Below, piece by piece: positions 2,495-54,316 of a stretch of DNA of 64,000 bases. Below the pieces are notes generated by a model, which had not been told where the DNA came from, ran no database searches, and saw only the letters and a program-made list of their open reading frames with translations. The DNA is from Thraustochytrium sp. TN22 (taxonomy: Eukaryota; Sar; Bigyra; Thraustochytrida; Thraustochytriidae): positions 59,656 through 123,655 of the forward strand of contig JABLUY010000094.1 of assembly GCA_013306675.1 (NCBI GenBank), in the 5' to 3' direction. Each line of letters begins with the position of its first letter. Within the stretch, counting starts at the first letter, position 1. The position numbers and the translations under genes are program-made.

Positions 2495-5400
2495 TCACTC
2501 TGCGCGAATGGCCTCTTCAACAGCGTCGCAGAGCTCCTTGGGCTCAATGCAGATGGTGACGTCGTGGCCGGTCCCAGCGCGACGTTGCTCACGGAACGAG
2601 TCCACTGCTTCGGCGAACTTGCGGAGGGCAAGTTCGGGCAGGGAGATTTGATTGTGAGCGGCTCGCACCTCATCCAGGTTCACCCTCGTGCCGGGTGTGA
2701 CCAAGAGGTAGCGCTGGTCGTCCCGCAAAAGGTCAAAGGTGGAGCGCAGCAGGCCGGTTGCATAGGTCTCCCGAATCGGCGACGACGCGATGCCAGCCGT
2801 GTAGAAGGCGGCAGAGGCGTCCTTCTTGATGGCCGCCACGTCGGCCGTCTGGGCGCGACCCTGGGCGAGGAGCCAGAGTCGACGCTGCAGAGGGTGCCAA
2901 GCAGCCTGGACATCGACCTCGTGCAGCGCAACAGCCTCGGCGACATCCGGAAACTTGACCGGGTCGAGCAGCGGCGCGAAGAAACCGCGCCACAGCAGCG
3001 GAACGCGCGAAGCGGCATCGCGGCTCATGTGCCACTCGGAGAGTCCAACGAGCAGGGTGGTGAGGAAGTGCTCGCGGCGGCCGCGGTCCTTGGCGCGCGT
3101 CGCACGCAGCGACGCAACGTTGTCAGGCGCCCACGCCAGCGCCTTGGCGAGCTCCTCGCGGGGCACGAAGCGCTCCACCAAGTGCCGCGTGTTGATCGGA
3201 TCCTCCTCGCACATGAGGAGCGTCCAGACGGCGGCTCGGTACGGGCTGCAGTGGCCATGCTGGTCGGCGTCCTCCTCGAATGCACCACTCCGGAGGACGT
3301 ACTTGGCGAGCTTGAGCGCATCGTCGGAGAGAGAGCCCTGCAGGAGATCCACGAGATTCTGCCGCTCCAGGGCGCGCAGGACCATCGCCGGAGAGCGGCA
3401 TGCCGAAAGGAGAACCACAAAGTCACTCAGGGCCACCACGTCGCGCTCCCGCCACTCCTTTTCGTACACGTCGCGGAAGTTGATGCTGTGGCCGCGACGC
3501 AGGGCATCCGACATGGCCTCCAGCGACTCGTAGCTGCCGCCCCAGCTGAAAGTCTTGCATCTCGTCTCCGTGACGCTCGCTCGATCGCTCAGCTGGTGTG
3601 GAAAGCCCACCTGGTCGATGAATGTGGTCGAAAAGATCACCTCGGGCGAGATAAGCTTGGACCGCGACACCTTGCGGTCTGTGACCGCAGTGTGCATCAT
3701 GCAGCACCACGCTGCGATCTTGGTGGCCGGAGACACCCCATTCGCGCCGCGCAAGTCGCGCTCCACGAAGTCGGGGAAGTCACGGCCCGCGTCCGTTGGC
3801 CAAGCCAGCAGCGCCGCCTGGACCATGGCGCCCACGGGACTCTTCTTGGTTCCCACGCGTAGAAACACCTCCTTGGCGATGGGGGCGCGCGCGTCGGGGT
3901 CCCCCGTCGGCACCGCATCGCCCTCGAGCGCCTCCATGGCCACAAGGAAGGCGCTCACAAAGTCATGCGCGGTCAGCTCCGACAGCCGCGGCATCTTCTT
4001 GCATAGCTGCTCCTGCAGCTGTGAAGAAGAGTTCTGAGCTAGCGCGACATTCAGCGCTTCAATCATGCGGAGCGAAATGGACTCGCCGCCAAAGAGGGCG
4101 CGGCTCAGGTGGAACCATAGCGTGATAGCCCAGGGCTTTTGAATGTTCGTCCGCTTTGTCAGCACCTCGTGGATGAGCGTAGCTGGTAGCCGAGCATTGA
4201 ACACCGACGCGCCAAGCGGTTCCAAAAGGGCGTCGTCACTGGCGCCCTTGCGGTTGGCGATCAGCAGCACGCGCAGTCGGGCTTGCTGGGTAGCAAGCCA
4301 CGTGAAAAGCTCCCGCTTGTGGGCGCTCGACAGCATGTGGTACTCGTCCACCACCAAGTACATGCGGCCGCCCTCCAGCGGGACCTTGCGTGCCAGCACG
4401 GTGGCCAGAGCCGTATCCACAAGCTCATCGTCCGACCCGTCAACGTAGGCGTCGCCTAATCCGCCATCGTTCATGAGCTTCTTGAGCTCGTCCGAGAAGT
4501 GGCTCTTACCGGCGCCTGGTGGCGAGACCAGCAGAACAATGCCGGACTCCTCCTTGAGAAGCACCTCCTTGACGGCCTCGCGGTAGTCGACCTTGTTTCC
4601 GAGCTCACTGCCCCCGCCGCCCGAGCCGTCCTCTTGCGGCAGCCACCGCGGCGACGCTGACTCGGCCGTTTGTGCCCCGCGAATTGGTGGCACCGAGGGG
4701 GGTGCACCAGGAGAAGCAGCGGCAGTCGGAGACGGAGAAGCACTTGCGTCCGCACTTGCGAGAAACTTGATGTCCTCGTTCATGTCGCTTGTTGGCGATG
4801 AGATGCCTTCCCCGCTCGTCTGACCACTCGGCACGAGGGCGGCGCTGAGCGCCTCGTTTAGCTTGCTCCAGTCGTTGTTCGCCTGCAGAATCGTCTCCGC
4901 GAGCGATTTGTCCACTTCGAACTCGTGCACCGGACGTTGCGCCAAGATTGCCGGGCGTTGCAGGTCCTTGCAGCTCGTTAGCAGCCGCGACAGGCTCTGA
5001 GGCGCCCGCGTCAGCACACAACGGTCGCGATTCTCCCCGAAGTTCCAAGAGGTGTCGCACTCCTCCAGGTAAACGAAGCGCCAAGGGTGGTGCTTCGAGT
5101 ACTCGGCGATCCACTTGAGCAGCTGATCGCTGATGGTCGGCAGACCGCGCACCCAGACCAGCCAGGTAAACTCCGAAAAGCTTCCGATGATGCGTAGGTA
5201 CATGCTCGCGTCGTCGCGCGCGTTGATGAGACTGTCGTGGCCTAGGTCGCACTCCACCGGCACGATGCCATGCCGCTGCAGCACCTCGCGCTCCTGTCGC
5301 CGAACGACATGGACGCCATACATGCTGTTCTTGCGCGCGATCAGCTTGCGAACGCCTGGCGTGATGGCGTACACGCGCGTGAGCTGCTCGCGCACCGACT

Positions 5401-8400
5401 CCTCCGGAGGCATGGCCGCCGCCACGCAGTTGGCAATCACCAAGAGGTTGACGTCCTCGCCGCTCTCCTCCTCCTCCTCCAGAAACGACTCGCTAGGGCC
5501 CACTCCATGCCGTGTCAGTGCTGGCGGCGTGCAGGACGGCGACCCAAAGCGCAGCGAGTCCATCATGAAGTGCTTGACGCTCAGTGGCAGCGGGCTGCGA
5601 GCGAGCTTGGCGAGCCACTCCAGCAGGCGGTCGCGATGATCTGCAACGCGCGACTTGTCGCACGCTTTCAGCGCGCGCTCCAGGAGCCGCGCGTGGAAGA
5701 TGTACGCAATTGGCAGGCCATGAGCGTCCGAGTACTGCACCTTGAGCTGCCGGGTGTCTAGCGGGACGAAGTACACCTCGTGATCGCGTTCCCGTCCGTG
5801 CAGCGCCCACACCAGCTGGTTTGAGCCTCGCGGCGTTCCATACCCCCCGATTTTGTACTCAAAGAGACCGGACTGCTGCGCCTGCGGCTGCCTTTGCTCG
5901 AGGGCAACACCTGCGTTCGGGGTGTCATCGGATGCGTCGTCGGCGTCCTCAGTCTCGTGGCCGCGGTCGCCACCTCGCATGATCGGCCGCTCCGCGTTCC
6001 GAACGCGGTCGCGCACGGCTTGGCTCACCTCGTCCTGCGCCTTCATCATCTTGCGTTCTGGCTTGCGCTCGGGCGTGTCCTCGATTTCTTCATCGCTGTC
6101 GTAGAACTCCTGCGTGTAGACCCGCTCCCCAGATGGCTCGTGCTCCTTATCGAGCAAGGTCAGCAGCCGAAGGCCCGTCTTGCGGAAATCTTCCTTGGCG
6201 ATCTGCGCATGCAAGGCTACCAGCTTGTTCCGCAGGGTCGGGTCGGCTCGTTGTGTGTTGCCCAGAGAGAGCTCCAGATTGTGCTTCACCAGCTCGAGCA
6301 CGAAGATGAGCTGCGACCGCGCCTCCTCGTTCGTTGTCGTCATAATCACGCCGAGAGCGCGCTGAAGAGCGTTCTTGATGTCTGCGTCGCCGCCGATACG
6401 CTCGGCCACCTCCGGAACAATGGTATGCTTCCCGGCGTTGCGCCGGATCTCCTCAAGGCGGTCCAGGAGCCAGTTCACGCGGTTCCATTCGGCGTCTTTG
6501 TAAGTGCCATACGGACCCAGCGGTTCGTGCTCTTCCTTGTCGTCGTCGTCGAGTTCGTCCTCGTCTTCGTCAAACGGCTCCCTAATGTCCGTGTTCTCAT
6601 CTTCTGCGTGGTCCTTGCCGCCACCATTCTGGCCATCGCCGTCACCTCCATCTACGAGGTCTTCCGCGGCTTCGGGATTCGCACGGGCGCCTTGCCGAGC
6701 GCCCGTACCCCACCCGCCCTTGCGTTCGTCCTCTCGAAATTGCGCGATGCGCTGGAGCGCATCTCGAACGGTGGGGACCCGGTCGTCGCCTGGCGCCGCA
6801 ATGGTGCAGGCCGCTTGCACCAGGCACTCCAGAATGAGAACGACCTCCTCGTGGAAGTTGAAAGCCGCCAGCCGGTGGCTCTCGACGATCGTGTGCAGGA
6901 AGAGCTCGGGCTGCTCGACATCCGCCTCATTCATGGTGGCCATGAGCATCACCCAGGTGCCATGTTGCGTCTTGCGCAGGTAAAAGCCGCGGCCCAGGAT
7001 GGTGGAGTTGTTCGGCAGACTCTGGAAGAGCTCCCACGTCTCGCCGTTGTTTGCGAACACGTGCGCAATGTCCGCGCCCTCGCCCAGGTCGCCGTCAAAG
7101 GAGAACGGGCTATGACGCACGTACCGCACAGGCTCCTCATCATCCTGTGACATGGGCCGGCGCAGCACGGGATGAAGTCCTGGCGCCACTTCGAGAACGC
7201 CATACGATGGCTCTGTCTTGACCCGAAGAAGGCTGCGCGCCGAAACCAAGCTCGCCGCACGACTCGATGGCGAGTCGCTTGCCCTTTGCATCGCAAGGAC
7301 GAGGTCCAGCGTGGCCTGATCGTCCATCCCGCCGTAAGACCGCTCGTGCACGGCGCCAGGAGCGTGAAGCACTTGGTGCAGGTCGTTGCCAGACTGCTGC
7401 ATGTCGCTCGCAGAGTCAGTCTGCGGGTGCTGCGGAGCTCCACCTTGTTCGGCCTCGCCCTGCTCCGTAGCCGTCGCGCCGGCCCCGGTGCGGAAGGGCA
7501 AGAGCCGCCCCACGAGACAGTTCCTGTAAAGATTGAACGCGGCGTCGCTCATCGGGGCGTGCCCAGCGATCGTCGCGCTAGGCCGGCTTTGCTGGCGAAT
7601 GAGGCCACGCAGGTTTTGAGCAAACTGATCGCCATCCAGAAGCTGCCCGACCGTTCCCTCAGCGCCCTGGTTGCGGTCCACCCCGATCACGGTCCATTTC
7701 TCGTCACGGATCCTTTTGAAGATGCCTTGCACGTTGAGCGCGAGAGCCTGGCCGTCCTTGAAGACATTTTGACTCATGTACTCGATCTCCGCTAGGCACG
7801 TATTTGAAAGAACTGCGGTCTGTGGCCAGCGCTTGTGGAAGGTCTCCAGCATCGTGACGACCGTCTTGCCCTCCGTGAGCGGGGTCAGACCTAGAATGAC
7901 AAAGAGTCTGTCGGAGACCGTGGCGACGAGCTTCTCGCGTACCTCCTCTTCGCTTGTGGAGAGGCCTGCAGACAGCGCCTCGAAGGCTGTTGTCACGAGT
8001 GTTTCCTTCTTGCGCAGGCCCAGGAGAAAGCTGCCCGCCATGCGCAGCGTCGCCCATTCGGCCTCGCCTGCTGTGGCGAGCGCCGCTCCAACCAGCTGGA
8101 AAAGGTCGCGCACGATTGACACGTACTCCTCCGTGGCCGCGGCACGCAGCGCGCGCTCCGCAAGCTCTTGGGCGTCGCCTTGATCTTGAGCGACTGCTTG
8201 CGCCAGCAAGAGCACCTGCTGCGAGGTGATGGCGATGGAGTTTGGCGAGAAGAGCGCGTCCATGGCCCCACCGAATTCGTCCACGTAGCGAGCGTCGATG
8301 ACCACAGGCAGCGGGCAGAAGACAAACTCGTCGGCAGCGATTCCAGTGCCGTTCGCGATGGTGGTCACCGCTGTCGTGGCCATCTTCCGCGACGCATCGT

Positions 8401-11400
8401 CGGCGAGCGCGACGAAAGTGGCCAGGTCCTCCGGGCGGAGGCCCGCCTGGCGGAACCAGGCGAGTAGCGTCAGGCCGGTATGCACAACGGTAGGGACGTG
8501 CAAGTTGCTCATGTTCTGGCTGTACAGAGCCTTCATCGCCGTCTCGAGATGAATGAGCAGACGCAGGTTGTGCTTGAGCGTACTCGCGGAAAAGCCCTCT
8601 TGCACGCGTGGGAAAGCGAGGTCAGCGCTCCACGTTTTCGGCGCGTGCAGTCCTGCCGGGCCGCTCTCCTTGAGAATCTCGTACGCGTACTGGATGCACT
8701 CACGCGGGAGCTCGCGCGCAGGCTCGACACGCAACACATAGGGCGGATAACGGGAGGAATTCCGCTGCGCGAGGATCAAGGCCTCGCTGGCGTGGGCTTG
8801 CTCATGTGTGCCCATGAAGCGCGTCTTGAGGCTCGCGAGCGCTTCCCCTGGAAGCGTGTGAGGCATGACCGAGAAGATCGCCAGCAACGAGAGCGGGTCC
8901 GTGCTTGCTTTGCAGGCTTTGGGCAGCACATCGCCTTGGACCGTTTGCCTGAATTCATTCCACTGCGTCAAATCTTCCGGCAAAAGGGCGATGGGAAGAT
9001 TGTAGGCCGGATTCGCCGCCCACGCGAACCACGCGAGCACACGCGTGCCAAGCGACAAGGGCGTTTGCGAGACCTTCCAGATCCGAACAGTCGCCTTTAG
9101 AAGCTCTTCACGCGCCCTGGAGCCCTCGAAGAACCGACGATGGTAGCGCAGCATGCCGCTGATGTCGACGTCGCTTGGCCGGGCGAAGTGCTCCACATAA
9201 AGGTCCACGAGCACGGGCGAGGACACCAAATCAAGGTTTGCCTCGCAGGCGCTCAGCTCGTCAAGCATGAGCATTCCACGCGCCGCGGAGAGGATTGCCA
9301 AGCTGGCCACCGATTCGGCCGCCTCACCGTAGATATCCACGAGCACATCTCCGACCGCGGTGATATCTTCCTCGTCCTCGTCGTGGTCGCCGTGGTCGTC
9401 ATCGTCAGCGTCTTCCAAGCCTCCTTCTTCAGCCTCGCCTCGTGGTGCCGTGACTGCTGTTGACCTGAGTTGCTGCTCCCGCAGAAGCCAGCACACTTGC
9501 AGGCACACGTTGAAGCGAGCCCAGTCCACGACGCCATCGGCGAAGTCAGGCGCAATTGCATCGAGCATGGACTTGAGGAAGTCTGCTTGCGCGCGGGCGT
9601 CCCTGTTCCCTTGAATGGCGGGAAGCACGTGTTCCACGACGAGGCGCGCGAAGGGCTCGCCGCCGGGTTGGCCACTTCTGAGCAGCAGTGCATTGGGATG
9701 CTTGCGTGCACCATGTGCGAGCACCTCCGCCAGGGCTGCGGCAGAGATATGCGTGTGCCAGCCTGGCGTGGAGCGCATGCGGCGCAGCTGTTGCCACATG
9801 CTGTCGTCGTCTGCACCGCTAGCCCATGCCACGAGGCCGCCAACGCGGCCTTGAATCGCCTGCGCGCTTTGAGGCAGCCGCTCACGCCAGCTCGAATGGA
9901 GAGAGAGGGCAAGCAGGGCCGCACCCAGCTTCAAATTCGGCGCGTGGCGGAAGATGTCTTCCACCAGCTGCCGGTCCTCGTCCCGCGGCGACAAGACCAG
10001 CTCGGCCACCTTGGGCTGCGCCAGCAGCGCCGAGGGCGGATCGTCGAGCTGTACGAGCGCCTGCACGAGTCGCTTCTCGAGGACGCGATCCCCTGTGCCT
10101 TCAGCACCGTTCCCTGAAGCCTTGAAGTCAAACTGCAAGTCAGAGTGCAGAAAGTCACGCACGAGGCGCGCGAAGGAGGCCTCATCGGCGGCGCCCTCTT
10201 CACTGCCCTGGTTCCGCAGGATGGACCAGGCCAGGGCCGCAACTCTGTGCCGCAACTCGTCGTGCACCACTGCGCCGCGGCCGCCCTCGTCACCGCCGCC
10301 GCTGCTGATGCCATCTGCCGCTTCGTCGTCAGCGGCCAGCGCAGACCGAATGGAATCTAGATCATCGCTCAGGCGGGTCACAACGATCTTGGAGAGCGGG
10401 AGGGACGCCATGCGGTTTTTGCTCAGTGAGAGGCTCAGGAGAAGTCGCAGCGGCGACTCTTGCAGCAGGTGCTGCAGGACCGGTGTCGGAATCTCCGGCG
10501 TGCGCGACCACGTGTGGTCCACGACGTTCCAGTCCAGGTCGGCGCCGCGGATTGCTGTTTGCTCAATAATGTCGCTCAGCGGCGTCATGGAGTCGCCGCG
10601 ACCCGGGTCCACAAAGAAGCAGTCCTTGGCAGCCTTGTTTGCTCTCCGAAAAGCGGCTTCGTCAACCAAGGGGAGGTCGCGCACCTCGACTGGGCTGCAG
10701 AGGATCTCGCCTGGGTTGTCGATGCGGTTGATGTTGTACTGGGGGTCGATCTCAGACCACGGCGTGAAGGCCTCTGGGGCGCGCAGGCACGCGATGTAGG
10801 CCCAGACACGCATCGCCTGCGGCGCGAGGAGCATGGCTGGGTCCGTGGCCACGTCGCTAAAGTGGACCAGGCTCGCGGCATCCTTCGCGTGATACCACAG
10901 TACGCGCGCGAGCAAGTCGCCGAGAAGGGGCCCCGCCGCCGCGCCGCGCGCGCCTGCCAAAGAGGGGGTAAAGTCCAGCGATGGTGGTTCCTTCGCGCGG
11001 AGTGTGAGGAGCATGCGCTGCAGCAGACCGGGCTTGGGCGCGAGCCGCAGAGCGAACTCGCTCAGAAAGCCCGGCACATCGATGGGGTCCTTCTCCTCGA
11101 GAAAATTGCGGAGTGCCGCGCGGTCGCCCGGCGTGAGGACAAGGTGCGGGCCGAGCAACGCGCGGAGGCCGAGCACCAGTCTGTCCTCACGCTGGTCTTC
11201 GGGCACGTGCGCTCTCGCATAGACAATCTTAATCTGCTCGGATGCCGTCCTACCATCCGCGCCCGTGTGCTGAAAGGTCGTGAGGTCGCGGGTCGCGGCG
11301 TTCACCACGAGAAGCAGAGGCAGGCCTCGCGCGGCACAGTGCGAGATGATAACCTGCAGGCGATCGCGCACTAGAAGCTGCGCGTGCAGAAGCACGACGA

Positions 11401-14400
11401 CCGAGGCCGCGTTCTGCTCCCCGTCAGGGCTCTCGCGAGCCGACGGAGACTTCGAGGTTGCTTCGAGCGCGAGAAGCGCACGCAGTTTCTCGATGCATCG
11501 TGGGTCGCGGGCGTTGAGGAAATCTGTTTTGAGCCCGTCTTTGAGCGAGGCAACCAGCGCCTCGGCATCCTCTGTGACAAGCACGCGCGTGTTGTGCTCT
11601 AGGGTCCTCTCGGTGGCTGCACCGAGGCATCTGGCCTCCTCGCTTGCCCCCTGTGCCCACGCTTGGAGAGTGCGGAGCCAGCTGTTGGCGGCCCCGGCGC
11701 GCTGCAGGACGCGGTCAACGATGCGCTTGGCAAAGGCCGGATTGCGGACCAGCTCGCGCGACACGCCGCGAAGCAGCGTGCCATAGACCGTGTTGGGCTC
11801 GACTCGAACAACCGGACTGATGTCCTTGGCGCTCTCCGACACGAGGTCGTGCAAGAAAACGCGCGACCGGATGTCGGCCGAGAGGCGATTGTAAAGCGCC
11901 ATGAGCCCCTTGGTGAAGTAGAAGATGAGCTTGGCGCACCGAGTCTCGCTGGCCACGCCGAGGAGCTTCTCGAGCATGCCGGCGTTCACGCGCCCGGTGA
12001 GCCGCACGAAGAAGAAGGTGGGCACCGACATCTCGACGCGGCGTCCCAGACGGTCCGCGATGCTCCAAAAGTTGCTCGGCTCCACGTCCAGATCTTCGCA
12101 GTTGAACTTGGTGCACTTGTTCAGGAGCTCGTGCATGTGGATCCACATGTCGTCAGTGGCCAGCGCGGCCGTCGCCGGAGCGCCCACGTTGCGACCCGTC
12201 ACGAGCGCCAGAATGGCCTCCGCGGCAGCGTGTTCGTCCGAGCTCATGTTCTCGTTGGTGGCCAGGAGCGCCTTCCACACGCGATGCACGGGTCCGCGGA
12301 AGCGGCTGGGGGAAACCGCTACCAGAGAGGTGACCGACATGCAGTTGAGGATGAGCTGGTTCGCGCGCAATTTTTCGTACACCATCTCGTCCTGCACACT
12401 GGCCCCGCGCAGCTGCACGAGGATTGAAAGGACCTGGGCCAAGGTTTCGGCAGTCTCGACAAAGCCCATCTGGGCGTGTTGTGCCAGGAGGCCGGCTAGC
12501 TCGTTGTTGGACTGGCTGGCGCTATCGAAGCCCAGGTGCGTGGCCGGCAGCAGCAGCAGGTACCGGCGAAAGCTGAGGTTCTCCTGCTTGGGTGCCACGC
12601 TGCTGCGCGGAAGGACGGCGACAGATGGGAGCCGCATGCCCTCCACGTCTACCTTGCCGGGCTGGGTGAGTGAGACCAGGTATCGCCGCTCGCAGCTCTC
12701 CTCGAGTTGCCGGTAAGCGTTCGGCTCCTCTGCGCGCGGGTCGTCCTCGCCGTCGCGCGGAACGGAGTCCATCTCGAGGAGGATGTGCGTGAAGAAGCGG
12801 AGGTGTTGGCCCATGTCGTCCTTGCGCGCGGCATCCCCATTACGCTGGGCCGCCGTCGCAGCGCTGGACCCGCCACTCGCGCCCCGCGTCCGGCTCGCAG
12901 GCGAGCCGGGCGGGGCGGTCTTGGGAGCCTTGGGCACGCCTTGGGCCGCCCCGTCCGCGCCGTCGAGCTCGGCGCCTGGCGCATCCTGGCCGCCATCGAG
13001 AGCCAGCAGGGGTGCCTCTGCGAGGACACGCTCCAGAGGGGCCGAGTCTGCGGCGTGCACGCCAGTGGGGACGAACTCGTAGAACACGAGCGCATCGCGC
13101 TCCTCGCTCACTGGGAGCACCGAATTGAAGATCTTGTCGCGCGCCGCCTCGCACAAGGCATCTGGGATGCGTGTATAGAGGCCGTCGAGACGAGCGCCCA
13201 CCTCGGTGATGAGGTCGCCGGACTCGTCCGACACGCTCAAGCAGCGTGCAGTGAAGGGCGAGCTTCGCCCAGACGCCAGAATCGCGCCACCCTGATCGGC
13301 ACGGTAGCCGATGACCAGGATGACGCGGCGTTCCGATTCGCCGTCCGCCTGCTCGCGGGCGTCTGCGCGCGGGTCCTGTGCGGCGGCGAGACAGGCGCCC
13401 AGCGTCGCGGCGTCCCGCAGCTCCATCAGGCGCTGCTTCTTGGAGCTGTATTGCCGCATCTTGTGCGTGTAGGTGTCCTTGGCCGTGCCTTCGTCAAGCG
13501 TCAGGCGAGTGGCCTCCTTGACAAGATTGAAGAGGTCCGGCTCGTCATCGCTGCCAATGGCCACGCCAACAGCCTTCTTCACACGCGGTACCATGGTCCT
13601 GAACCACTCCGCCTCCCTCTCGACCAGGTATCGCCGGTCGGCCAGCGTCAGACCACCGGCTTCGCTGCCCCGATCGGCCGGGTTCTCCCGGTGCCACTTG
13701 TCCAGCGGCGTCAGTTTCGCATCCAGGCGCGGATCGACAATCACCACCTCGTTGCGATTTTCCTGTGCCACGCTGCGCCGGAGCGAGTCCACGAAGATTC
13801 GCTTGTTGCGCTGATACTTGTCCACGGCCACGTCGAGGAGGCCAATCATGCTTTCCATCTGCTGCGGGGACAACACAGCCTGGTCCGCCTTCGTCTTGAG
13901 CTGCCGCAGCCGCTTGCGAACCTGCTCCGGGTGCCTCTTCTTAAGCTGCTCCTCGCAAAGCCGCTTCGTGATGGTGCACAGCTCCTTGGGCGCATAGAAC
14001 CGAAGTCGCACAAACGGAATCAGGAAGCCAAACTCCTTCTCGTCCTCCAGGCGCCGCAGCAGTTCCTCCGGCTTGCACCCGCGCAGGTCCTCCAGCAGAT
14101 TCTCCAGTCTTTGCGTGGATTTGTTCTGGAGCATGCGCAGCAGCTCGACGAGATCGCCGTTCGGGGTGCCGGACTTCTCGGCCAGCGCCCGCTCGGCCAG
14201 CTCCACAAGGTTCTCCGCCGTCACCGTGCACACCCACCGGTCGCCTTGCTTCTCCCGCGCGACCAGCTTGCCGCCCAGCCAGCGCAGGCACTCATACCCA
14301 ACCCGGCCGCGCGCGTCCACCACGAGCCACGCGCCGCGCCGAATCTCGCTAAGCGCAGACTTGGGCTCGAACACGAGCACGTCGTACTCCACGTCCCGCA

Positions 14401-14977: not shown

Positions 14978-15396
14978 GCTCCCTCCCGCCGCCGCGCCGC
15001 CCCGGGGTTCGCGCTCTGCGCGCGCTGCCGCGGCGCCGCCGGCCGCGGGAGCGCCGCGGGAGCGGCCTCGCGCTCGCCCAGTTTTCCACAGGCTGCACTG
15101 CAGAGCCGAGCAGAGTAGAGCAGAGCCGAGGAGAATTCGAATTTCAAATCACCGCAGACCGGCGCGCGGCCGTCTACGCAGACGCGCGCGGTCTGCGCAG
15201 ACGCGCGCGGTCTGCGCAGACGCGCGCGGTCTGCGCAGACGCGCGCGGCGGCCCGCGCCCGCGAAGGCCTCCCGCGCGGCAGACCCTGCCGCGGCGCCGG
15301 CGCGCGGCATCGGGCGCGCGGCATCGCGCATCGCGCATTGGGCATCGCTAGGGGGCGGAGGACCGCGGCGGGAGCCACGCAGCGCGCCGCGCAGGC
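14978..15396. promoter_or_regulatory. Shared divergent promoter region of A1 and B1
   Basis: These 419 bp lie between the start codons of A1 (minus) and B1 (plus) and must hold both 5' UTRs and promoters. Three elements stand out: a run of GCAGAGCCGAG-like repeats at about 15100-15130, a short AT-rich island in otherwise very GC-rich DNA (15133-15149, GAATTCGAATTTCAAAT), and four tandem 19-bp units at 15172-15247. A similar AT-rich TTCAAATTCAAA island occurs in the other A/B intergenic region. Promoter function is inferred from position only. Confidence 0.6.
15172..15247. repeat. Four tandem 19-bp units with perfect palindromes
   Basis: The unit GTCTGCGCAGACGCGCGCG is repeated at 15172, 15191, 15210 and 15229; the first copy has one change (TCTACGCAGA). 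Each full unit holds the perfect 12-bp palindrome GTCTGCGCAGAC followed by alternating CG. Its place between two divergent starts makes it a candidate cluster of dimeric transcription-factor sites. Confidence 0.9.
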
Positions 15397-41043: not shown

Positions 41044-41065
41044 GGCGCCGTCGCCGCCGCCACCG

Positions 41066-41102
<37 letters not shown>

Positions 41103-41827
41103 GACTCGCCTCGCCTCGCCTCGCCTCGCCTCGCCTCGCCGCGCCGCGCCTCGCCGCGCCTCCGGTCCGCTCCGAGTTTGCCGCCGCCGCCGCCGCTGCC
41201 CGAGCAGTTTTAGGAGTTTGTTCCGGCGCCGCAGGGAGCGCCGCGGGAGCGCCGCAGGAGCTCGGCGAGCGAGCGCCGCGCCGCGCCGGGCCCCGGTGCG
41301 GAGGGGCGGCGTCGAGCCTGATTTTGATGGTCAGAGCGCTGCCGGCCGAGGCCGCCGCACTGCGCCGCGCCCCCGGGCCGACCTGGCTGGCTGATGGAAT
41401 GCTTGATTGATGGATTGATTCTGTTTGCGATTGCGCGGCGCCGGGGCGGGAGCCTGCTGACAGTGAGTTCAAATTCAAAATTCAAACGCGCTAGCTAGGC
41501 ACAGGCAGCCACGGTGAAACTGGCTGGGCCGTCGCGCTCGACGCAACGCAACGCAGCGCAGCGCAGCTCGACCCGCCTCGGCTCGCCTCGGCTCGCCTCG
41601 GCTTGGTTTGGCCCGGCGCACGCTCTCACCGCGCGCACCAGCGCGTTTTGGCGCGTCCTGACGCCGGCGCTCTCGCAAGCCGTCCTCAATCAAGCTGGAA
41701 CCCAGACCTCTAGCTAGCTCTCGCTAGAGCCAAACGCCGCCAGACCACGACAGCGCCGGCGCGCACGGGCGGCGCGCGCGCGCGCGCGGAGTGCGTGGGA
41801 GAGGCCGCCGCGGCCGCCGCGAAGCCG
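41044..41827. promoter_or_regulatory. Shared divergent promoter region of A2 and B2
   Basis: These 784 bp separate the chosen ATGs of A2 and B2. It contains a CCG microsatellite (41052-41102) and a CTCGC pentamer array (41105-41140) next to the A2 start, an AT-rich island (41466-41488, GTTCAAATTCAAAATTCAAAC), CGCAACGCAG repeats (41539-41568), GCCTCGGCTC repeats (41575-41605) and a CG dinucleotide run (41771-41788). The minus-strand frame stays open through part of it, but the encoded Arg/Gly/Ala sequence looks like translated repeat rather than protein. No start codon other than TTG supports an extension of A2. Confidence 0.6.
41105..41140. repeat. CTCGC pentamer array 5' of A2
   Basis: Seven tandem CTCGC units, then degenerate GCGCC copies to about 41160. 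The array sits 60-100 bp upstream of the A2 start. The same pentamer array lies directly upstream of the aspartokinase gene. Confidence 0.95.
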
Positions 41828-44800: not shown

Positions 44801-47800
44801 CGCTTCGTTTCCGAGCTCTGTCAGCGCCTCGACGGCCTCTCCAGCAAGGCGACACTCGCCTCGGCGACGTGTGCCGTCGTGCGGCTTGCGCACCTGCTTG
44901 CGAGACCCATGGCGAGCGGCACCTCGGTCCTTGGCGTCTTTCAACTGCTCAATCGCGACCACCCCAAGCCGTCCTTCGTGCTAGAGAGCAACTTTGACGC
45001 GCTCAACGACGCGAGTCTGAAGCTCGTCGTGGCTCCGCCCGGCAAAGCACATGGCAGCGACGGCACTGACGGCTTATGCAACTCCAGAAATCATGCGAAC
45101 GGCGTCTGTGTGCAGCTCCACGCACGCGGCAAGGCCTTCAACGTGGCGAGCCACGGCCGCGGACTCCGCCAGCTCGACTGCAGTGCGCTATCCGAGTTCA
45201 CCACGCAGATGCTCTCGTACGCGAGCGCCGCCGCGGCGGAGGCGCAGACGGCCTCGAGCGAGGCCACCAAGGTCCTGCGCTTCATTGCGCGCACGGAGCA
45301 CGCGCGACGTCTCGGTGTCGACCTTCGCGACGCCTGGCGCGTGGACTTCGTCTTCAACGGGACCAAGCAGCCTTGGGGCGAGGTCACAATCGGTCCAAAC
45401 GCGCTTGAGATCCTTTGGAAACACGCCAATCCGCGCGCCGCGAGCCCGGAGACCGACCTCGACTGCAAGGCGGCGCGCGGCATACTAATCCCTGACGCCA
45501 CGCTTCAAGAGGTGCGCACTGTTCGTCGCCAGGTGGAACAGGCGGCGCCATGGGCGCTCCGACTTTGCACATCTCGGCAAGACCAGCGCCAGGCTGACGC
45601 CTGGGACCGCATTGTTGTGGATGAGGCCGCTCGGGCCGGGCCTGAAGCAATGAAGACGGCTGTCGCGCGGCTCGCCGGGCCGGCGCTCGACAGCGACGAT
45701 GCGGCTCGGCGCGTTCGTCGCGCAGTGCAGCTGCTGGAGGCTGGCGAAGACCCTGTCGAGGCACCGCCTCGGCCCCCAAGCCTGCCTCCGTTTGTAGCGA
45801 TCGAGACGTCGCGCCTGCAGGCGGCCGCCTGGTCCATGAGCCAATGGTCGTGGCGCGCCCTGAGCCTTCTTGGCGGCGTGGCGGCCGAGACCTCCATCTT
45901 CGCGATTGATGACTCCATCTCGGAACGGGCAATCGAGGTCCTGCTCGTAGCCATCCGCGAGGCCGCGCGGCAGCCCGCGGACGCTGCGTTTTGTCTCGCC
46001 AGCGGGCGAGGTCTTGTAATTGCTGGGGCGGGGGCTCTCGCACCTGGCACGCGGGCCCAGCTCTGTACGGCCTGCGTGGACTACGCCACGGCAGTGCGCT
46101 CTGCGGACCTGGCGTCGAGGTCGCCGGTCCTCGTTCTCATCGACAAAGGAGCGATCGGGCTGGATGACCGTGCTCTCAAGGCAGCTCACGTCGTCAAGGC
46201 AACCCATGCGGATGAAGTCTTCCGCCAGCTCTGCGCGCAGGAGCCCAGGCCAGCGCGGCGCCCAAGGCTGGTTCGCGTACACTCCGTGGAGGACCTCACC
46301 GCACGAGCCGCTGGCATCGTGCCCCCTGGGCCTCGCATTCTCGTGCGCAAGACGATGAGCATCGCAAGTCTGGTTTCGGAGCTTCGCGAGGTGGCGCAGC
46401 AGGGCCCCTCCGACCCACGCAAGGCGAATGTCATCGTCTTGGACTGCCTCGAGGATGCCTCCGAGGTGCTCGACTCACCTCTTGGCGTCGCACTCATGTC
46501 TCTCGTCACAACGTGCGCCATCGGCCAGGAGACGTGCAGCGGCCCGTTCTTGCTTGCACCTGGAGCGGGCGTCAGGGTGACGCTCGAGGTGGCCGCCGGC
46601 ACGCATTTGCCCTTTCAGCAAGCGCCCGCTCGTTTCAAGCCGCCGTCGAGCCTGCCCGCGACGTCCGATATCGTGGAGGCAGCCGCGGTCAAGCTGGAGG
46701 CCCTTGCGGTGGATGCCGAGCAACGCGAGGTAAACGAGGGCGAGGTCTGCGCAGCTTTGGCCATTCACCGCGCCTCACTCAGCGGCAGGCCCCAGTCGGA
46801 CGAACTTGCGTTCACCTACACGCCGGAGGCGCTCCGCGTCATGGCCCTCGCCCTGCGCTGCATCCCTCCGAGCCCCGCCGCTGGTGACTGCGCGCTGGTG
46901 CGGCCCGTGGTCCTTGCCGGAGACACTGGCACGGGCAAGACCTACCTTTGCATCAAGCTGCAAGAGCTGCTGTCGCGGTCGACTCTCTGGAAGGTGCAAG
47001 CATCGGCTCGGCTCTGGTCTTTCTCCGCTGCCTTTGGTCACGCCGAGGTTGCCTATCTCAACAAGAAGGTGGCCGAGACGCCCGCCACGGAGGACGAATG
47101 GAGCTTTGTCATTCTTGACGAGGTCACGGCCAGTGCCGCGCAGAGCTCCATCGAAGCCCTGGTGCGAACGAACGTTGCGGCTGCAAGTGCGCTCAAGGAC
47201 GAGGGTTTCCACCGCGTCCGCCCCTTCTTCCTCCTCACATGCAACCCGGACCCACGGCGCGACGAGGTCTTTGCGTTGGCGCGGACGCTTGCGGCGGTCC
47301 TGCTCGACCTTGTTCCGCCCGCCGCCGACTCCATGAGGGCCTTCGTGCGCTCGAGCTTCGAGCGGTTTGCGTGGCACGCGGATTCCACCGTCAGCAAGGT
47401 GAATCCCGTCACGGCTACAGACTTGTACATGGCGGCGGCAGCGGCCTTTGGCGCCCAAGCCACACAATATGGCGTGCTCAGCTCGAGAGACGCCACGCAA
47501 TGTGCGGCGATCGCCAGCGAGCTGTGCCTGAAGCCGGGATTTCTTCAAGATCTGCTCGGTGGCAGCGCGGACGGGACGGACGCAGTAGCCCTGGCACTTT
47601 ACCTGGTGATTGGCGTTCGCATGGTGCCTCGCGGGGCCTTTTATGAGGCGCTCGGGTCCGTTCTGGTCCGCGACTGGGAGCGCTGGTTTCAAGAGGCGAG
47701 GGCGAGCGTCGTCAGCGCGTACAACGTGGCCAAGGGCGTGGTCGCCACGCGAGCGCTTGAGGAGAACCTGCTGGTGCTCACGCTTGGCCTGTTGGCGCGG

Positions 47801-50800
47801 CAGCCTGTGCTCCTCTTGGGTGATGACGGCACGTCCAAGAGTCTGTCCATCAAGATGGTCTCCCGACAGATGCGCGGCGACCTCTCGGCTCGAGAGCTTC
47901 TCAAGACGCACTTCCCGCGCCTGCAAACCTTCGCTCTTCAATTCTCTCCGCGAACGTCCGCCGCGCTCGTGCGGCAGCTCGGGATGGCCCTCACGGGCCT
48001 CACGGGGGACGAGCGCGCCTCCCTGTTCAAGAGCGCGCTGCCGTGTGCCGTTTTGGAGGAGATGTCCATGGCGCGGGCAGGGCCGGAGGGCCCGCTTCGG
48101 GCGTTGCACGGCCTGCTGGACGACCACCAGTTACGGCCTCGCACCAGCGTGCGCGGCGGCGTTCAGGCGGGCTCCGGCGCGAATGCCTTTGGCTTCATCG
48201 GCACGTCAAACTTTTTGCCGTCCATGGGCACCCAAATTCCCGTTGGGCGCGCCCTGGCGAACCGCATGCTGGTGCTTGTGCACGAGAAGCAGCAGCGCGA
48301 GGACCTCGTGCACATGGCCATGGCAGCAGCCTTGTCCGGAACCGAAGGACGCCTCGCAGGCATGGGGCTCGAGTACCTGAGGAGCGCCGCCGGCCACGTT
48401 GCCGTGCGCGACCTGCTCGCCTTCGCGCGCGCGCTGGTTGTGAGTTCCTCACGGCCGTGGGCGGCGAGAGAGGCCGACGTGGTCCCGCTCGTGTGCGCCG
48501 CCTACCTGCAAAAGGTCACCAAGGATGGCTCGAAAGAGGTGTGGTCCAGGCTGCCCTTGCAGGCGGATGGCGTTGCTGCCCAGGTGGACCACGGGAGATT
48601 GATGCGGGTCCTCCAGGACCCGGCGATGCCGCCTCGCGCGCTGCTCGTCGTCTACGAGACGACGCGCGATTTGGAGGACTGGCTGGCGGCCCTGGACGGC
48701 CGGCTCTGCCCGCAGCTCGCCAGCTGCGAGGCGTCCGTCTTGGATCTCCTGGAGCTTGGTCTGGACCCGGCCGTGGCGCGGCACACACAGGCTGAGACCG
48801 TCGGCGAGCTCGCAGACATGCCCACGACAGCGTTTGGCAAGTGCTTCGAGCTCGTCGAACCGGCGAAGCGGGTACTGGAGGCGTACGCGTGGTCATGCGG
48901 CGACACGGCTCCGCTTCTCCCAACAGCTCCGGGCGACGCCGCGCGGCCGGTAGAGGAGTGGGTCGAGTCACGCCTGCCCTTTGTCACCGGCGACGCGCGC
49001 CAAAAGGTCGTCAAGAGCCTCGCAAAGCGTGGCGTGAAGACTTGTGCTGACCTTGCAGCGATGCCTGTGGCAAGCTTTCTCGCGCCGGAGTGGCGCAAGA
49101 AGGTTGGGCTCGTGGTCACACTCGAAGTGATGCGCGCTGCGCTCGCTTCGGGAGAGCACGCGGCCAAGGACTGCTACAAGCGCAACAAACGGCTCATCAG
49201 GGCGGCGAGCGCGCCGCTGTCGGAAGGAAGTCGCGACAGCGGCGGCGATGAGGATGAGGTCGAGACGCCTCTCGTCAGGGTGCACCGGGACGTGCTCTGT
49301 ATCAGCGACTGGGTCGCGCCAATGGAAGAGGGCCGGCGCGAGACGCTGCTGCGTCTTCGCACGAGTTTGCACAGCGGCGGCTGCACGACGCTGGTGAACC
49401 CGGAGCCTGTGCTGGACCGCATCCACGCACTAATGAACGATTTCACGAGCAACCAGACGTCCACCCTGCAGACCGGGGCCTCTTTTGAGACGGTCTCCAT
49501 CGCGCCTGGGGCCAGGCTGATTCTGTGCATGCATGTCAGCCAGGTTTCGCAGCTGCACCCGGCGGTCTTGTCGCGTGTTTCTGTGGTGAACTCGGGTTAC
49601 CCGGTCCCGCGCCAGGTGCCCGGTGCTCGGGCGCGGCCTGAGTCGGTCTATGCCCAGCTCGCGCAGAAGGCGCAGTCAGTCTGTGCCGGGGACGACTGGC
49701 CGGGCCCGGCGGACTACAGCCTGCTGGACGCCGTGGACGTCGGTCAGACAAGCACCGCCTTCGGGTCCCGCGCCGGTAAACATGTGTCGATCGTGTCGAG
49801 CGCCGACCGTCTCGAGTGCCCGCGGGCGTTCACCTGCGTCGCAGCACGCGGATTTGCGACGCTGGACGACCTCGAACGCGGCCTCCGCCAGGCACTGGAA
49901 GGCTCACGACGGAGCATCTTTTGCGACCTCGCCTCGCTCGCTCTAGCAGACACGGTCAACGTACTAGTCGCTCTGGGGTTCGCGGGGCCCACGCTGCAGA
50001 CAGGCTCCTTCACGAACCGGCTCCTCGCGGGCCATCGGACCTTGGCCGAGGTCTTCGAAAAGGAAGTCCTGCGCCGAGGCCGGCGAGTTGTACTCCAGGT
50101 GCATCCGCACGCCTTCGGGGCGTGCCACCCGAGCGTACGGCTGCGGTGCGTGGTGGAGCTTCTCGAGGTACGCGACTCGGCGTGCAACCCGCATGAGGCA
50201 TGGCCTCGGCTCGTGGACATTGCACGGGACGCGCGCTGCATCGCCGGTCCGTCGCGCGACTTGCTGTGCGCCTACCTCTGCGCGGGCCAGAGCGACCAGG
50301 CGGAGCAGAACGAGGCGGCCGCTGCGTTGGCGCGACTTGTCGTGGACAAGGTCCTGCTTCGGCGTTGGGGGCCGTGTCTTTTGGGCGCCGAGCGCGTCGA
50401 AACATGGCGACGACTGTGTCTCTCCGTTCGGCAAAGCACGTTGTCGCTCAGGACGCTGGTGCTGGAGGATCTCCGCGAGATGATCTTCCAGTGCGCGGAC
50501 TTTGTGCTCGACGTGCTTGGAAGCAAGGCGTGCATCACGGGCCAAGCGGAAGTGATCGAGGTCGGCGTGAACGCGTGGACCTCGGACGAGGAGGTCGCTG
50601 CGGCGCTTCTCGAGGCCAGGGCCTTCAACTTCCAGCGGCGCACAGCGAGCAGCGGTGTCGCGAGCAGCTCGTTGCGGTTGGCTCAGAGGATGGCGCGGTC
50701 CGCTCAAAGCAGCGTGCAGTTCCCCGGCGCGAGCCACTTGCTCGCGACCATTAGAAACGACGGCGCAGCGGGCCTCGCAAGCGCCTTCCCCCTGCTGGCC

Positions 50801-53698
50801 GCTCCGGAGCGGTTGCTCCCTGCAGACCTCGTGCGGCGCCTGCTGCAGAGCCTCGTGCAGGAGCTCGCCACGGAGTGGCGCCTTGCCAAGCCCGTGGCCT
50901 GCGCGCCAAGCTTCGCGCGCGCGCAGATGGCTCAGCCTCGAGCGTTGCGAGATGTGCTTCTAACATTCTGGGCCCGGCGCCATGAAGTCATGCTCCTCTC
51001 GTTGGTGCGCCGTGGGCGCCGCGACGCATTGGATGCCAGCGACGACGATGGCCTCGGCGGGGGCTTCGCCGATGTGCTTCACGCCCTCCGCAAGGGAAGA
51101 CTTCAGGCGGAGGTGGACGCGGCAACCTTCACGACGGCGCTTCGTCATTGCAAGGCTGGCAGGCAGCTCGACGACGATTGCGACGGTGCCTTGGACGAGA
51201 TCGAGACCCTGGTGGCCCTGTGGCTCGCTTTCGTCCGTGCGAGCCCTGCGGAGCCTGAAGCAGAGCGCAAAGCGCTGGACGCAGCAAGGAAAGTGGAGAT
51301 GGGCAACGGGAGCGTGGGACTGGCAACGAGCGTCGAGGACTGCGAGGCGCTCATGGTCCGGCTCGAGGGCATTCGAGCGCGGCTCAAGCCTCGAAGCGTT
51401 GCGTGCCTGGTGTCGCTGCTCCTCGAGAATGCTGCGTCCGCCGATACTGTGGCGCGAGCGCTGCGGCTGGAAAATGGGACGAAGCGCTCGCAAGCGCAAC
51501 GCATGGTGGACGTGATGGCGGCGCTGGAACGTGCCGATGTGTCGCCCCCAGAGCGCGTTCTGTGCCGCGCTCTTCGGCTGACGGCGATCTGCCTTGTGAC
51601 GTGGGACTCGCTTGACCCCTGGGTTGCGTGCATGTCAACTCGTGCCCCGGGCAACCGTGGCATGGGCAAGGTGGCATGGAGGCTCTTCTGCGCAGTCTTC
51701 GGTGCCCAAGTCGTGGAGTGTGCACTGCGGCAAGGTGGACCGGCTGGGGCTGCGAAGCTGCGTGCGATTCTGCACGAGGGCAACCCTGCCCGCGAGCCGC
51801 TCCGCAACTTTATCATTCGCGTGCTCGTTCGCGACTCGGGTGAGTCTCATCTCAAGGTGGCAAGGTCGTTGCTGGCTCAGACCACGCCAGCCGAGGACCC
51901 GGACGCCGGATGGTACGAGCCTTTTTTGGCGCCCTTGGAGCACGGTGTAAATGAGGTGCTCCTCAATGTGCCTGGTTTCGAGGGCGATGGCGCGAGCGGG
52001 CTATGGACCTCTATGGGCTTGCGCTCGGCCGTGCCGACGCTCACTGCTGGATGCGAGGACTTTGCGGCGCCGGCGCTGCTGTGGAATGCCTTGGTGGCGC
52101 CGTTCGGCGTCCTGCACGGTGCCGGTGATGGCTTCGCGGCGCCCAAGTACGCGCGCACGCTGGCGACCGCAACGCTGCCGGGGATGGAGATGACACCACT
52201 TGAGATGGCCCGTGCCATCGGCGACGGGACGTCGGTGAACAGGTGCCCGCGCTGCGGTTACATCTATAGCATCGGCAACTGCGGGAAGCCCATGGAGACC
52301 GCGCCGTGCCCTGGCTGTCGGGGCGTACTCGGCGGCCAGGCCCATAACTACGCTGGTGGCGGGTCGCATGTCGTGACGAATGCAGCATCGGGGTCTATCC
52401 TGGGCATTCCCTTGAACCTCAAGCTGGAGACCGCCGCAAGCCACAAGGAGGGCTCGTTGCAGCCCCTGGAGTATCGCATCTTGTGGTTGCTGATGCTTTT
52501 CCCATTGGTGGTGGCAACGAGCGGCGGGATGGACACCGCCGATGGGATGCGCGCCGCGCGCCGCGCCGAGCAGGCCGCCATTGCGTGGCAGGCGTACAAG
52601 GCGGCCCTAGGCCTCTACAGTGATGAGGAAGCCTCGTATGCCTTGGTGGCGTTGATGGTGGCCAGTATGAAGAAGCCGGGACCGCCGAACCTAGCTCTGA
52701 GCCACCTATCCCTGGTCAAGCCGTCCACAAGCAGATCGGCAGACTTCCGCACCAGCCGAGAGACCATCTTTCAGGCCGCCATGAAGGCCACCTTGCCGGA
52801 CGGGGCGCAGCTCAAAGATTGGCTCGTGCAGCAAGCCAAGCTCGCGGCAGAGCGGGTCCAGCATTTGCGGGAGCAGCACCCGCTGGTGGGCCTCCGCGAG
52901 ACGAGTCTGGCCAAGATGAACGTGGACGAGGTCCACGCAAGGGTGTTCCCCGAGGCGTGCGAGCTTGAGGTGGCGGCCGCTGCCGATGCGGACGCGGTCC
53001 AGGCGCAGCTGTGGGAGGCCCGCGCTACCGTGCAAGATGTTCCGCTGACGGCGCTCGCCGCGTACGTGGAGCCTTCGGGCAGGTGGACCAGCCAGGTGTT
53101 CCAGGAGCTTCTCGCGCACCTTCCGGCGTGGGCGCGGGAGGTGCCTCGCGTGGCAGAGCACCTGGGCAGCCTCGCCATTGGAGCCCGCAAGCTGCATGCA
53201 GCAGCTTCGACCGTGACCAAGGCCGCAACGGCCAGAGCAGCGGTGATGGCCGTCCTGAACGAGTCCGAGGCAAGTGCGTTTCAGGAGGCATGGGACGCGT
53301 GCCGGGGCGGGCATCAGTTCGAATGTCAGCGGGTGGACGACCTGGGCTCTTTGGACGCGCTGCCGGCTGCGGACCTTCTCATCCTCGAAGAGCGGCCGAC
53401 GCCGCTGCAGACGATGCTGGGAAACCTAGTCCGGGCGCACAACGAAATGGTGCAGTACGTGAGTACGCTGGTGTTCGGCGACGAGATCGGCGCAGGCTCG
53501 ACGAGCGAACAGGTCTCGCTCTATGAAGTGAAGAACGTTGATGCTCACATGGCACGCTGGGCGACGTTGCGTGTGCTGGTGGACCTGCACGCGGCCCGAG
53601 CTGCTCAAGGGCTGGAGCTGGAGCTGGCACTAAGCATTCCTGCGACAGCCTTGGCCTTTGACAATGACTGGCCTCATGCCGTGAGCTCTGCGGGTGGT

Positions 53699-53747
<49 letters not shown>

Positions 53748-54316
53748 GCGAGGAGGTCGGCGTGGTGCGCATCCCCGGTCTGCCCGCAGCGGAGATACTT
53801 CCCGCTTCGCTCGAGCTGGAGGTCGACCGCTTGGTACCGGGCGACGCAAGTCATCGTGTACTGGAGCAGGTGCAGCTTCGTGCCGCGCACGTGGCTGCCC
53901 GCATGCGGAGAAGCGGGCTGGTCTCAGCTGATGCGGAGGAAGACGTGTGGTTTGGGCCGCACGGCGATGTCCGTATTGCTGTGCAAGTGCGTTTCCTGGA
54001 ACTCCTGCAGGACCGTCTCTGCCGCAAGCTAGGGCGTAAGATCTTCGACTGCTTGGGCACGGCGTTTCGCGAGCCGTTCCCAGAGGCGCCGCCTGCGCTT
54101 GTGCGGGACGCGGCGGTGCTGCAGGCACTCATGCAGGCATGCCCACACATTTGCGGATTTCAGAATGGCAACACGCACGTGAGTGAGGTCGTCCCGTTTG
54201 CAGAAGGTTTCGACGAACTACCGGACCACGTTCGGGAGGCCATTGAGTCGCTCAACGTCCCCTGCAAGTACCTGCATGCCCTTTTGGAGGCGAGTGCGAG
54301 CCTCATGAAGATGTAA
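41828..54316 (+). CDS. RNF213-like: RNF213-like giant AAA protein with RZ finger, B2 (4162 aa)
   Basis: I start at ATG 41828 because the protein then begins MIWVVF, aligning with MVWVVL of B1; an upstream GTG at 41795 only adds an Ala-rich stretch. Stop TAA 54314-54316. Domain order equals B1: first AAA Walker A GDTGTGKT at residue 1698, Walker B FVILDEVT at about 1760, sensor TCNPDPRR; second AAA Walker A GDDGTSKS at 1998, with LEEMSMA and LHGLLDDHQL following; SRVSVVNSGYP near 2590; RZ finger at about 3473-3511 (CPRCGYIYSIGNCG ... CPGC ... LGGQAH). No RING-like cluster is visible. B2 has its own insertions: an Asp/Asn run at about 277-304 and a poly-Gly of about 20 residues near 3955. RNF213 relatives combine ATP-driven dynein-like motion with RZ-dependent ubiquitin transfer. 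Divergent from A2; tandem duplicate of B1. Confidence 0.88.
42655..42738 (+). repeat. GAC/AAC repeat coding for Asp/Asn run in B2
   Basis: Imperfect GAC triplets with AAC, AGC and GGC interruptions encode an acidic stretch at about residues 277-304. B1 has no such insertion. Confidence 0.9.
53692..53750 (+). repeat. GGT/GGC repeat coding for poly-Gly in B2
   Basis: About twenty consecutive Gly codons (GGT then GGC) near residue 3955, between the RZ finger and the C-terminus. At the matching place B1 has a short ordinary linker. Confidence 0.92.

Follow-up and report, generated by a model that had tools for sequence, protein, structure and literature searches.

The 64,000-nt stretch analysed here (the window) carries four uninterrupted giant open reading frames (ORFs), arranged as two tandem divergent pairs in the order A1 (reverse), B1 (forward), A2 (reverse) and B2 (forward). 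A1 (2495–14977, − strand) encodes 4160 amino acids and is separated by a 419-bp spacer (14978–15396) from the divergent start of B1 (15397–27774, + strand), which encodes 4125. B1 and A2 meet tail to tail, with 81 bp (27775–27855) from stop to stop, and a 784-bp spacer (41044–41827) separates the first ATG of A2 (27856–41043, − strand; 4395 amino acids) from that of the divergently oriented B2 (41828–54316, + strand; 4162 amino acids), both lengths being counted from these ATGs. The order, strands and positions of the four ORFs agreed with the initial annotation, and zero internal stops were found. The extents given there also held for A1 and B1, but not the starts of A2 and B2, whose first ATGs (at 41043 and 41828, respectively) are internal to the open frames (27856–41478 on the − strand and 41795–54316 on the + strand). 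A run of 4125 open codons has a log10 chance probability of approximately −44 under a simple model using the base composition of the window. The host is a single-celled eukaryote and probably a marine thraustochytrid, as suggested by a tandem array of ACPs taken with the architecture of PUFA synthases. Speaking against this, the GC content of the window, measured in 4-kb steps, is 62–71%, above the 43.3–47.5% listed for four labyrinthulomycete genomes in PMC10101102.

Both pairs have diverged considerably. A1 and A2 are identical at 2326 of 4059 aligned residues (57%), and B1 and B2 at 2038 of 3996 (51%). By codon position (first, second and third), nucleotide identity is 0.69, 0.74 and 0.46 for A1 versus A2 and 0.64, 0.69 and 0.41 for B1 versus B2. 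Four-fold sites are identical at 334 of 789 positions in the A pair and at 282 of 793 in the B pair, with ∼0.30–0.33 expected from base composition. Since these synonymous sites are near random while the amino acids are conserved, the duplication is old, and both pairs have stayed under selection. We read the locus as a divergent gene pair that was duplicated in tandem long ago.

RNF213 (mysterin) is a vertebrate giant AAA+ E3 ligase, and the human enzyme tags invading microbes with ubiquitin. The B proteins had been assigned to the RNF213 family by their AAA and RZ motifs, and this was borne out by Pfam and PDB searches. Using phmmer against the PDB, B1 and B2 each matched RNF213 chains independently (whole-protein E 1.8e-9). 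A profile of the B1/B2 pair matched RNF213 at E 7.3e-10 in two collinear stretches, AAA4 (alone E 0.00013) and RZ (alone E 0.0088); taken singly, the matching stretches score modestly (E 0.0001 to 0.01). B2 also matched scFv-like chains in the PDB (E down to 4.9e-5) through a glycine-rich stretch near residue 3950, which we discarded as low complexity, and matches of this kind recurred in the pair-profile search. Against NCBIfam, B1 returned one sub-threshold ATPase model (E 0.058).

Of the six AAA units expected in a single RNF213-type chain, two are recognisable by sequence in B. The AAA3-equivalent, assigned from motifs and without alignment to RNF213, lies at 20380–20715 (+ strand) in B1, with Walker A GDTGTGKT (residues 1672–1679), Walker B FAILDE (1735–1740) and a sensor-1-like N1778, all labelled by eye; Pfam AAA_16 matched it at E 1.6e-6, under the cut-off. 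The same Walker A is found at residues 1698–1705 of B2 (46919–46942, + strand; Pfam search and motif positions). The AAA4-equivalent was aligned to RNF213 over residues 1881–2080 of B1 (21037–21636, + strand), with Walker A GNDGMSKS (1975–1982) and Walker B AVLEE (2052–2056), and over residues 1967–2102 of B2 (47726–48133, + strand; phmmer against the PDB, stretch alone E 0.00028). As far as motifs labelled by eye can tell, the Walker A Lys, the Walker B Glu and the sensor-1-like Asn are present in AAA3 and AAA4 of both B1 and B2. The Walker B of AAA4 reads EE in B, compared with DE in RNF213, and ∼750 fewer residues precede AAA3 in B1 than in the human protein (K1678 versus K2426). The distance from the Walker A Lys to the Walker B Glu of AAA3 is 62 residues in B1 (K1678/E1740) and 61 in B2 (K1704/E1765), in line with the 62 of human RNF213 (K2426/E2488) (PMC11549300).

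Downstream of AAA4, in the same order as in RNF213, both proteins carry an RZ finger that scores over the PF20173 cut-off: residues 3437–3491 of B1 (25705–25869, + strand; E 6e-10, with an alignment to RNF213) and 3471–3512 of B2 (52238–52363, + strand; E 3.5e-9). In B1 the chain continues for 663 residues past the RZ cysteine, similar to the ∼691 of human RNF213. Genome-wide, PF20173 gave four matches, and the two over the cut-off are B1 and B2. The remaining two look false: L004, read by eye, contains a Snf2/RING-type helicase, and at L003 there is only a 47-residue frame.

The RNF213 catalytic dyad (C4462/H4483 of the mouse RZ; PMC12075652) has kept equivalents in C3462/H3485 of B1 and C3485/H3506 of B2. 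The likely zinc ligands are C3450, C3453, C3471 and C3476 in B1 and C3473, C3476, C3494 and C3497 in B2. Compared with the C, H, C, C ligands of mouse RNF213 (C4451, H4455, C4471 and C4474; PMC12075652), both copies keep three Cys and carry Tyr in place of the His; two residues ahead of this Tyr, a new Cys (C3453 in B1, C3476 in B2) forms a CxxC. Mutation of any of the four ligands, including His4455, ablated RNF213 autoubiquitination (PMC12075652). The changed ligand and the EE of AAA4 thus mean that activity of B is not guaranteed, and B could be a degenerate, inactive RNF213 relative retained as a scaffold only. We nevertheless consider this improbable, since the new CxxC arises at the same place in B1 and B2, as expected for a replaced ligand, and both the nucleophilic Cys and the base His have been kept despite 49% of the aligned residues differing between the copies.

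A RING pattern is absent from B1 and B2, and no RING family was found in Pfam at E up to 1; indeed, the single CxxC of B1 is the one inside its RZ. This absence, which had gone unmentioned in the initial annotation, is why we call the B proteins RNF213-like rather than RNF213. The RING of RNF213 itself has been reported to be dispensable (PMC7311170, PMC12075652). RNF213 also has an N-terminal carbohydrate-binding domain (PMC11549300), and no CBM family was found in B1 or B2 using Pfam at E up to 1, a search that a diverged domain could escape. The RNA helicase ZNFX1 shares an RZ finger with B, but the AAA units of B are of the RNF213 type with no helicase, and NFX1-type zinc fingers were not found in it (Pfam at E up to 1). 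Taken together, the comparisons support B1 and B2 as RING-less relatives of RNF213 that combine AAA+ units and a C-terminal RZ finger in a single chain. Their genes further differ from RNF213 in being present in duplicate, each adjoining a giant AAA-bearing gene.

The products of those adjoining genes had been annotated as an unrecognised family carrying a single P-loop module, and this was upheld by motifs and sub-threshold Pfam matches at corresponding positions of A1 and A2. In A1, which begins with an acidic, low-complexity N-terminus, the AAA-like module lies near the C-terminus (residues ∼3467–3573; 4259–4579, − strand) and contains Walker A SPPGAGKS (3485–3492), Walker B LVVDE (3541–3545) and a sensor-1-like LLIAN (3571–3575), labelled by eye. 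The motifs of the A2 module (residues ∼3698–3806; 29626–29952, − strand) are identical (3706–3713, 3762–3766 and 3792–3796). A thus shares Walker A, a Walker B DE, a sensor-1-like N and one module on the C-terminal side with AAA+ ATPases, but every score to the AAA_22, AAA_30 and AAA models was under the cut-off (A1: AAA_30 E 0.0085, AAA_22 E 0.055; A2: AAA_22 E 0.015, AAA E 0.045). The ∼3400 residues ahead of the A1 module gave one sub-threshold Pfam match (JMY, E 0.033, residues 256–374), and the corresponding part of A2 gave zero at E up to 1. The top PDB match of an A1/A2 C-terminal profile was 6c2u, a P-loop protein (E 0.036). We judged the weak PDB matches of A (best E per search 0.18, 0.036, 4 and 0.042) to reflect acidic stretches or a generic P-loop. 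NCBIfam and PADLOC, queried with A1 and B1 (two of the four proteins), returned no match for A1. These results support placing A1 and A2 in an unrecognised family of giant proteins that carry one weak, putative AAA-type P-loop module.

The giant size of A and B and the AAA modules in both raise the question of whether A is an ancient paralogue of B, namely a highly diverged AAA+ ring protein of RNF213/dynein type, stripped of the E3 module and of most Walker motifs, that forms a double ring with B. By eye, a possible degenerate AAA unit precedes the intact one in A1 and A2 (WLVWVRGLP...VYLEE, A1 residues ∼3272–3306). However, blastp of A against B found no similarity beyond one match (A2 versus B1, E 0.049), and hhalign with reversed controls reached a best probability of 0.9% over 2 columns, a weak negative because the AAA units within B likewise miss each other when such two-sequence profiles are used. 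On balance, we regard common ancestry of A and B as unlikely.

We then asked whether A works with B. Parts of A1 and of B1 used as queries found no further A or B in the 37.9-Mb genome, so that each family was seen there solely as a neighbour of the other (two of two each). Viral contigs (full alignments and conserved sub-alignments) and prokaryotic genome contigs likewise yielded no relatives of A or B in scans that each rest on two short peptide patterns, which distant relatives may escape. Both pairs most simply derive from one tandem duplication, so the A–B pairing counts as a single independent case, and the adjacency can be explained by physical linkage, given one duplication event in one genome. 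The spacers of the two divergent pairs have no significant similarity (10 of 200 resampled spacers reached the observed alignment score). Their sequences hence give no sign of a shared promoter, and we rejected this candidate.

It is quite possible, if short of an even chance, that A is an unrelated neighbour of the RNF213-like B, in which case a 26-kb segment was duplicated once and the copies were kept separately, with no A–B complex. Tandem duplication of two genes yields exactly this layout without co-function, genes are tightly spaced here (as in the short gap between B1 and A2), the spacers of the divergent pairs are not conserved, and blastp and hhalign found no sequence relation between A and B. 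Furthermore, A2 has lysine-rich stretches that by eye resemble nuclear signals, which the A1 N-terminus lacks. On the other hand, four genes of 12–13 kb have stayed intact to near synonymous saturation, a persistence more readily explained if neither member of a pair is dispensable, and neither family was found elsewhere in the genome. We give about an even chance to the reading that we prefer, namely an old duplicated pair in which B is a RING-less RNF213 relative and A is its giant AAA-bearing partner; a connection of A to the B-type ligase as such is only a guess.

ATP binding to the AAA core of B would, by analogy with RNF213 biochemistry, switch the ligase on. Ubiquitin would then pass from a cysteine-reactive E2 to the cysteine of the RZ finger, which is C3462 of B1 or C3485 of B2, and the histidine of the finger would aid its onward transfer to the substrate. 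More tentatively, A may be a dedicated partner of B, serving as a scaffold, in substrate recruitment or in regulation, and each A may pair with its neighbouring B, the two pairs having diverged toward different targets.

The flanking genes bear on the possible setting. Three TIR genes adjoin A1. Two of them encode C-type-lectin/TIR proteins, a combination that the genome search turned up nowhere else (of 18 lectin domains, these 2 alone lie <600 bp from a TIR). Downstream of A1 and on the same strand, G0 (1–1688, − strand; 598 amino acids, continuing beyond the window to C447:59547) encodes a weak MORN repeat and a TIR domain. Its 562-residue in-window piece scored 24.4 bits for TIR_2 (cut-off 28) and E 0.0052 for MORN, compared with 28 bits in the genome search, and G0 may belong to this immune-like neighbourhood. 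The genome has many TIR genes (126 matches, of which 114 exceed the cut-off), and the chance of a TIR ≤2.1 kb from one end of such a block is ∼2.6% for a neighbourhood that was noticed post hoc. The genes on the B2 side have no immune-related look. The C-type-lectin/TIR neighbours of A1 suggest cell-autonomous defence as a setting, and an immune role for the locus is reasonable, if unproven.

A linked innate-immune locus in a protist that is probably a stramenopile, combining C-type-lectin/transmembrane/TIR receptors with a duplicated RZ-only B and a dedicated giant A from a new family of AAA partners, is a broader proposal that we consider unlikely. To our knowledge, work on RNF213 has centred on vertebrates, and our literature search returned no paper combining 'RNF213' with 'stramenopile'. 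If the proposal were true, a protist would have an RNF213-type pathogen-tagging ligase with RZ as the sole ligase, and this class of ligase would have a dedicated partner. A natural RNF213-like protein with AAA and RZ and without RING is an independent evolutionary argument that ligase activity resides in the RZ finger rather than the RING, and the replacement of the His by a CxxC in B is a natural test of which zinc ligands are essential. Family A presents ∼4000 residues that can be aligned between the copies, and the collections searched yielded no homologue that could be recognised; were A a partner, it would provide a handle on substrate recognition by RNF213-type ligases. Finally, with the lectin–TIR genes alongside, an immune role could be tested directly, the host being a type of microbe that can probably be cultured.

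The open reading frames (ORFs) of the window bore out the order A1, B1, A2, B2 that the initial annotation had claimed for the four giant genes: A1 (2495–14977, − strand, 4160 aa), B1 (15397–27774, + strand, 4125 aa), A2 (27856–41043, − strand, 4395 aa) and B2 (41828–54316, + strand, 4162 aa), the latter two counted from the first ATG. Given the base composition of the window, a stretch of 4125 codons would stay free of stops by chance with a log10 probability of about −44. The A1–B1 and A2–B2 spacers measure 419 bp (14978–15396) and 784 bp, respectively. By eye, the former contains a short tandem repeat based on CGCAGACGCGCGCGGTCTG, and long Asp-rich triplet runs are present in A2 (32120–32220) and B2 (42650–42745), far exceeding in length the acidic stretches at the equivalent places of A1 and B1. 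The window spans positions 59656–123655 of the 123655-nt contig C447, from a genome of 37.9 Mb in 453 contigs, and its GC content, computed in steps along its length, is 62–71%. This differs from the 43.3–47.5% given for labyrinthulomycete strains in PMC10101102, where genome sizes are 36 and 43 Mb for two strains, near the size found here, and 62 and 66 Mb for two others.

The RNF213-family AAA and RZ motifs attributed to B at the outset were confirmed by several searches. Pfam detected the RZ finger above cut-off in both proteins (B1, E = 6e-10; B2, E = 3.5e-9), and each protein searched alone matched RNF213 chains in the PDB (whole-protein E = 1.8e-9). A profile of the B1/B2 pair matched RNF213 with E = 7.3e-10. 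The match covers two collinear regions: AAA4, with E = 0.00013 on its own, and RZ, with E = 0.0088 on its own. The Walker A/B residues are K1678/E1740 and K1981/E2056 in B1 and K1704/E1765 and K2004/E2078 in B2, as compared with K2426/E2488 and K2775/E2845 reported for human RNF213 (PMC11549300). The resulting spacing for AAA3, a unit assigned from its motif and weak Pfam AAA matches rather than from an alignment to RNF213, is 62 in B1, 61 in B2 and 62 in human RNF213; for AAA4 it is 75, 74 and 70, respectively.

The comparison also refined the identity of B as an RNF213-like protein that is RING-less and keeps the RZ active-site residues. In mouse RNF213, C4462 is described as the ubiquitin-accepting nucleophile and H4483 as the base, with C4451, H4455, C4471 and C4474 as zinc ligands (PMC12075652). 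RNF213 alignments place the equivalents of this dyad at C3462/H3485 in B1 and C3485/H3506 in B2; all three ligand cysteines are retained, the ligand histidine is replaced by tyrosine in both proteins, and a new cysteine gives CPxC. RNF213 has a RING, whereas a pattern search of both B proteins found none, the sole CxxC of B1 lying in the RZ finger, and we therefore class B as RNF213-like and not as RNF213. RNF213 with the RING deleted is reported to show autoubiquitination resembling wild type (PMC7311170). With the RZ dyad kept and the RING reportedly dispensable in RNF213, B would, by analogy, most likely work like the RZ route of that protein.

The earlier description of A as an unrecognised family with one P-loop module held: no Pfam family matched A1 or A2 above cut-off, and both gave weak AAA matches at equivalent positions. 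There, the two proteins have identical Walker A (SPPGAGKS), Walker B (LVVDE) and sensor-1-like (LLIAN) motifs. A further sub-threshold match of A1 to JMY (E = 0.033) was not shared by A2. Searches of A1 alone against NCBIfam and PADLOC gave no match, and PDB searches with A1 and A2 none that was convincing. Neither blastp (best E = 0.049) nor hhalign with shallow profiles revealed a relation between A and B; the latter likewise failed to relate B's own AAA units to each other, so that A and B may still be distantly related.

The duplication is ancient, and each of the four giant genes has been under purifying selection. Identity by blastp is 2326/4059 aligned positions for A1/A2 and 2038/3996 for B1/B2, and the duplication is also visible in a DNA repeat search, with copies ∼25.4–26.5 kb apart. 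At codon positions 1, 2 and 3, identity is 0.694, 0.738 and 0.463 for A and 0.640, 0.692 and 0.413 for B. At four-fold sites where the amino acid is conserved, A1 and A2 share the base in 334/789 cases (42%) and B1 and B2 in 282/793 (36%), with ∼0.30–0.33 expected from base composition; synonymous sites are thus near saturation while amino acids are conserved, the basis for both conclusions. The two spacers showed no significant resemblance, the observed score being reached by 10 of 200 resampled spacers.

Genome-wide, A1 residues 1180–4160 matched only A1 and A2, and B1 residues 1001–3998 only B1 and B2. The RZ model PF20173 gave four matches, with B1 and B2 the two above cut-off; the two weaker ones look false on closer inspection. 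No A or B relatives were found in viral and prokaryotic collections. A lies beside B in both pairs of this genome, which count as one case because they stem from a single ancestral duplication. That all four of these giant genes have been kept for so long favours co-function of A and B. The two-component machine is a hypothesis.

Beyond B2 lie an aspartate-kinase-like gene (AA_kinase, weak ACT; 54990–57572, −), a DUF1295 gene (58467–59294, −), a bZIP gene (59207–61216, +) and a MAD1-like gene (61411–63966, −), which do not look immune-related. Elsewhere, on contig C124 (29160–32300), ten tandem ACP domain matches, nine of them equal-scoring, repeat every 327 bp in one 3044-aa frame, an array like that of thraustochytrid PUFA synthase. 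A thraustochytrid origin of the genome is thus probable.

Downstream of A1, on its strand, are three TIR genes. Directly adjacent is G0 (1–1688, −, continuing into the adjoining stretch L010; 598 aa). Its MORN repeat is weak, and its TIR scored 24.4 bits when the part inside the window was searched and 28 bits in the genome-wide search, for a cut-off of 28. Just outside the window, at ∼56–59 kb of C447, follow two tandem C-type lectin + TIR ORFs (L010:8182–9528 and 6217–7686, both −), whose predicted starts are non-ATG, so that their true N-termini may differ. The first has a 19-residue hydrophobic segment between lectin and TIR scoring 1.91, against a non-specific threshold of 1.8 that G0, A1, B1 and B2 also exceed with one stretch each; the second has a similar interdomain stretch by eye, below the threshold. 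From their sequences, both ORFs appear receptor-like. A heme oxygenase gene (L010:4924–6075, +; PF01126, E = 4.1e-59) lies nearby. Among 18 Lectin_C matches in the genome, only these two have a TIR within 600 bp, the next nearest being 23 kb away. TIR domains number at least 126 TIR_2 matches at E up to 0.01 (at least 114 over cut-off) on at least 84 contigs, a large count for a genome of such size; the chance that a block like this one has a TIR no more than 2.1 kb from one of its ends, computed after the fact, is ∼2.6%. At the start of contig C160, four equal-scoring TIR matches occur at a spacing of ∼1.04 kb, and every one of them contains a single in-frame TGA. The lectin–TIR neighbours make an immune setting of the A/B locus worth testing.
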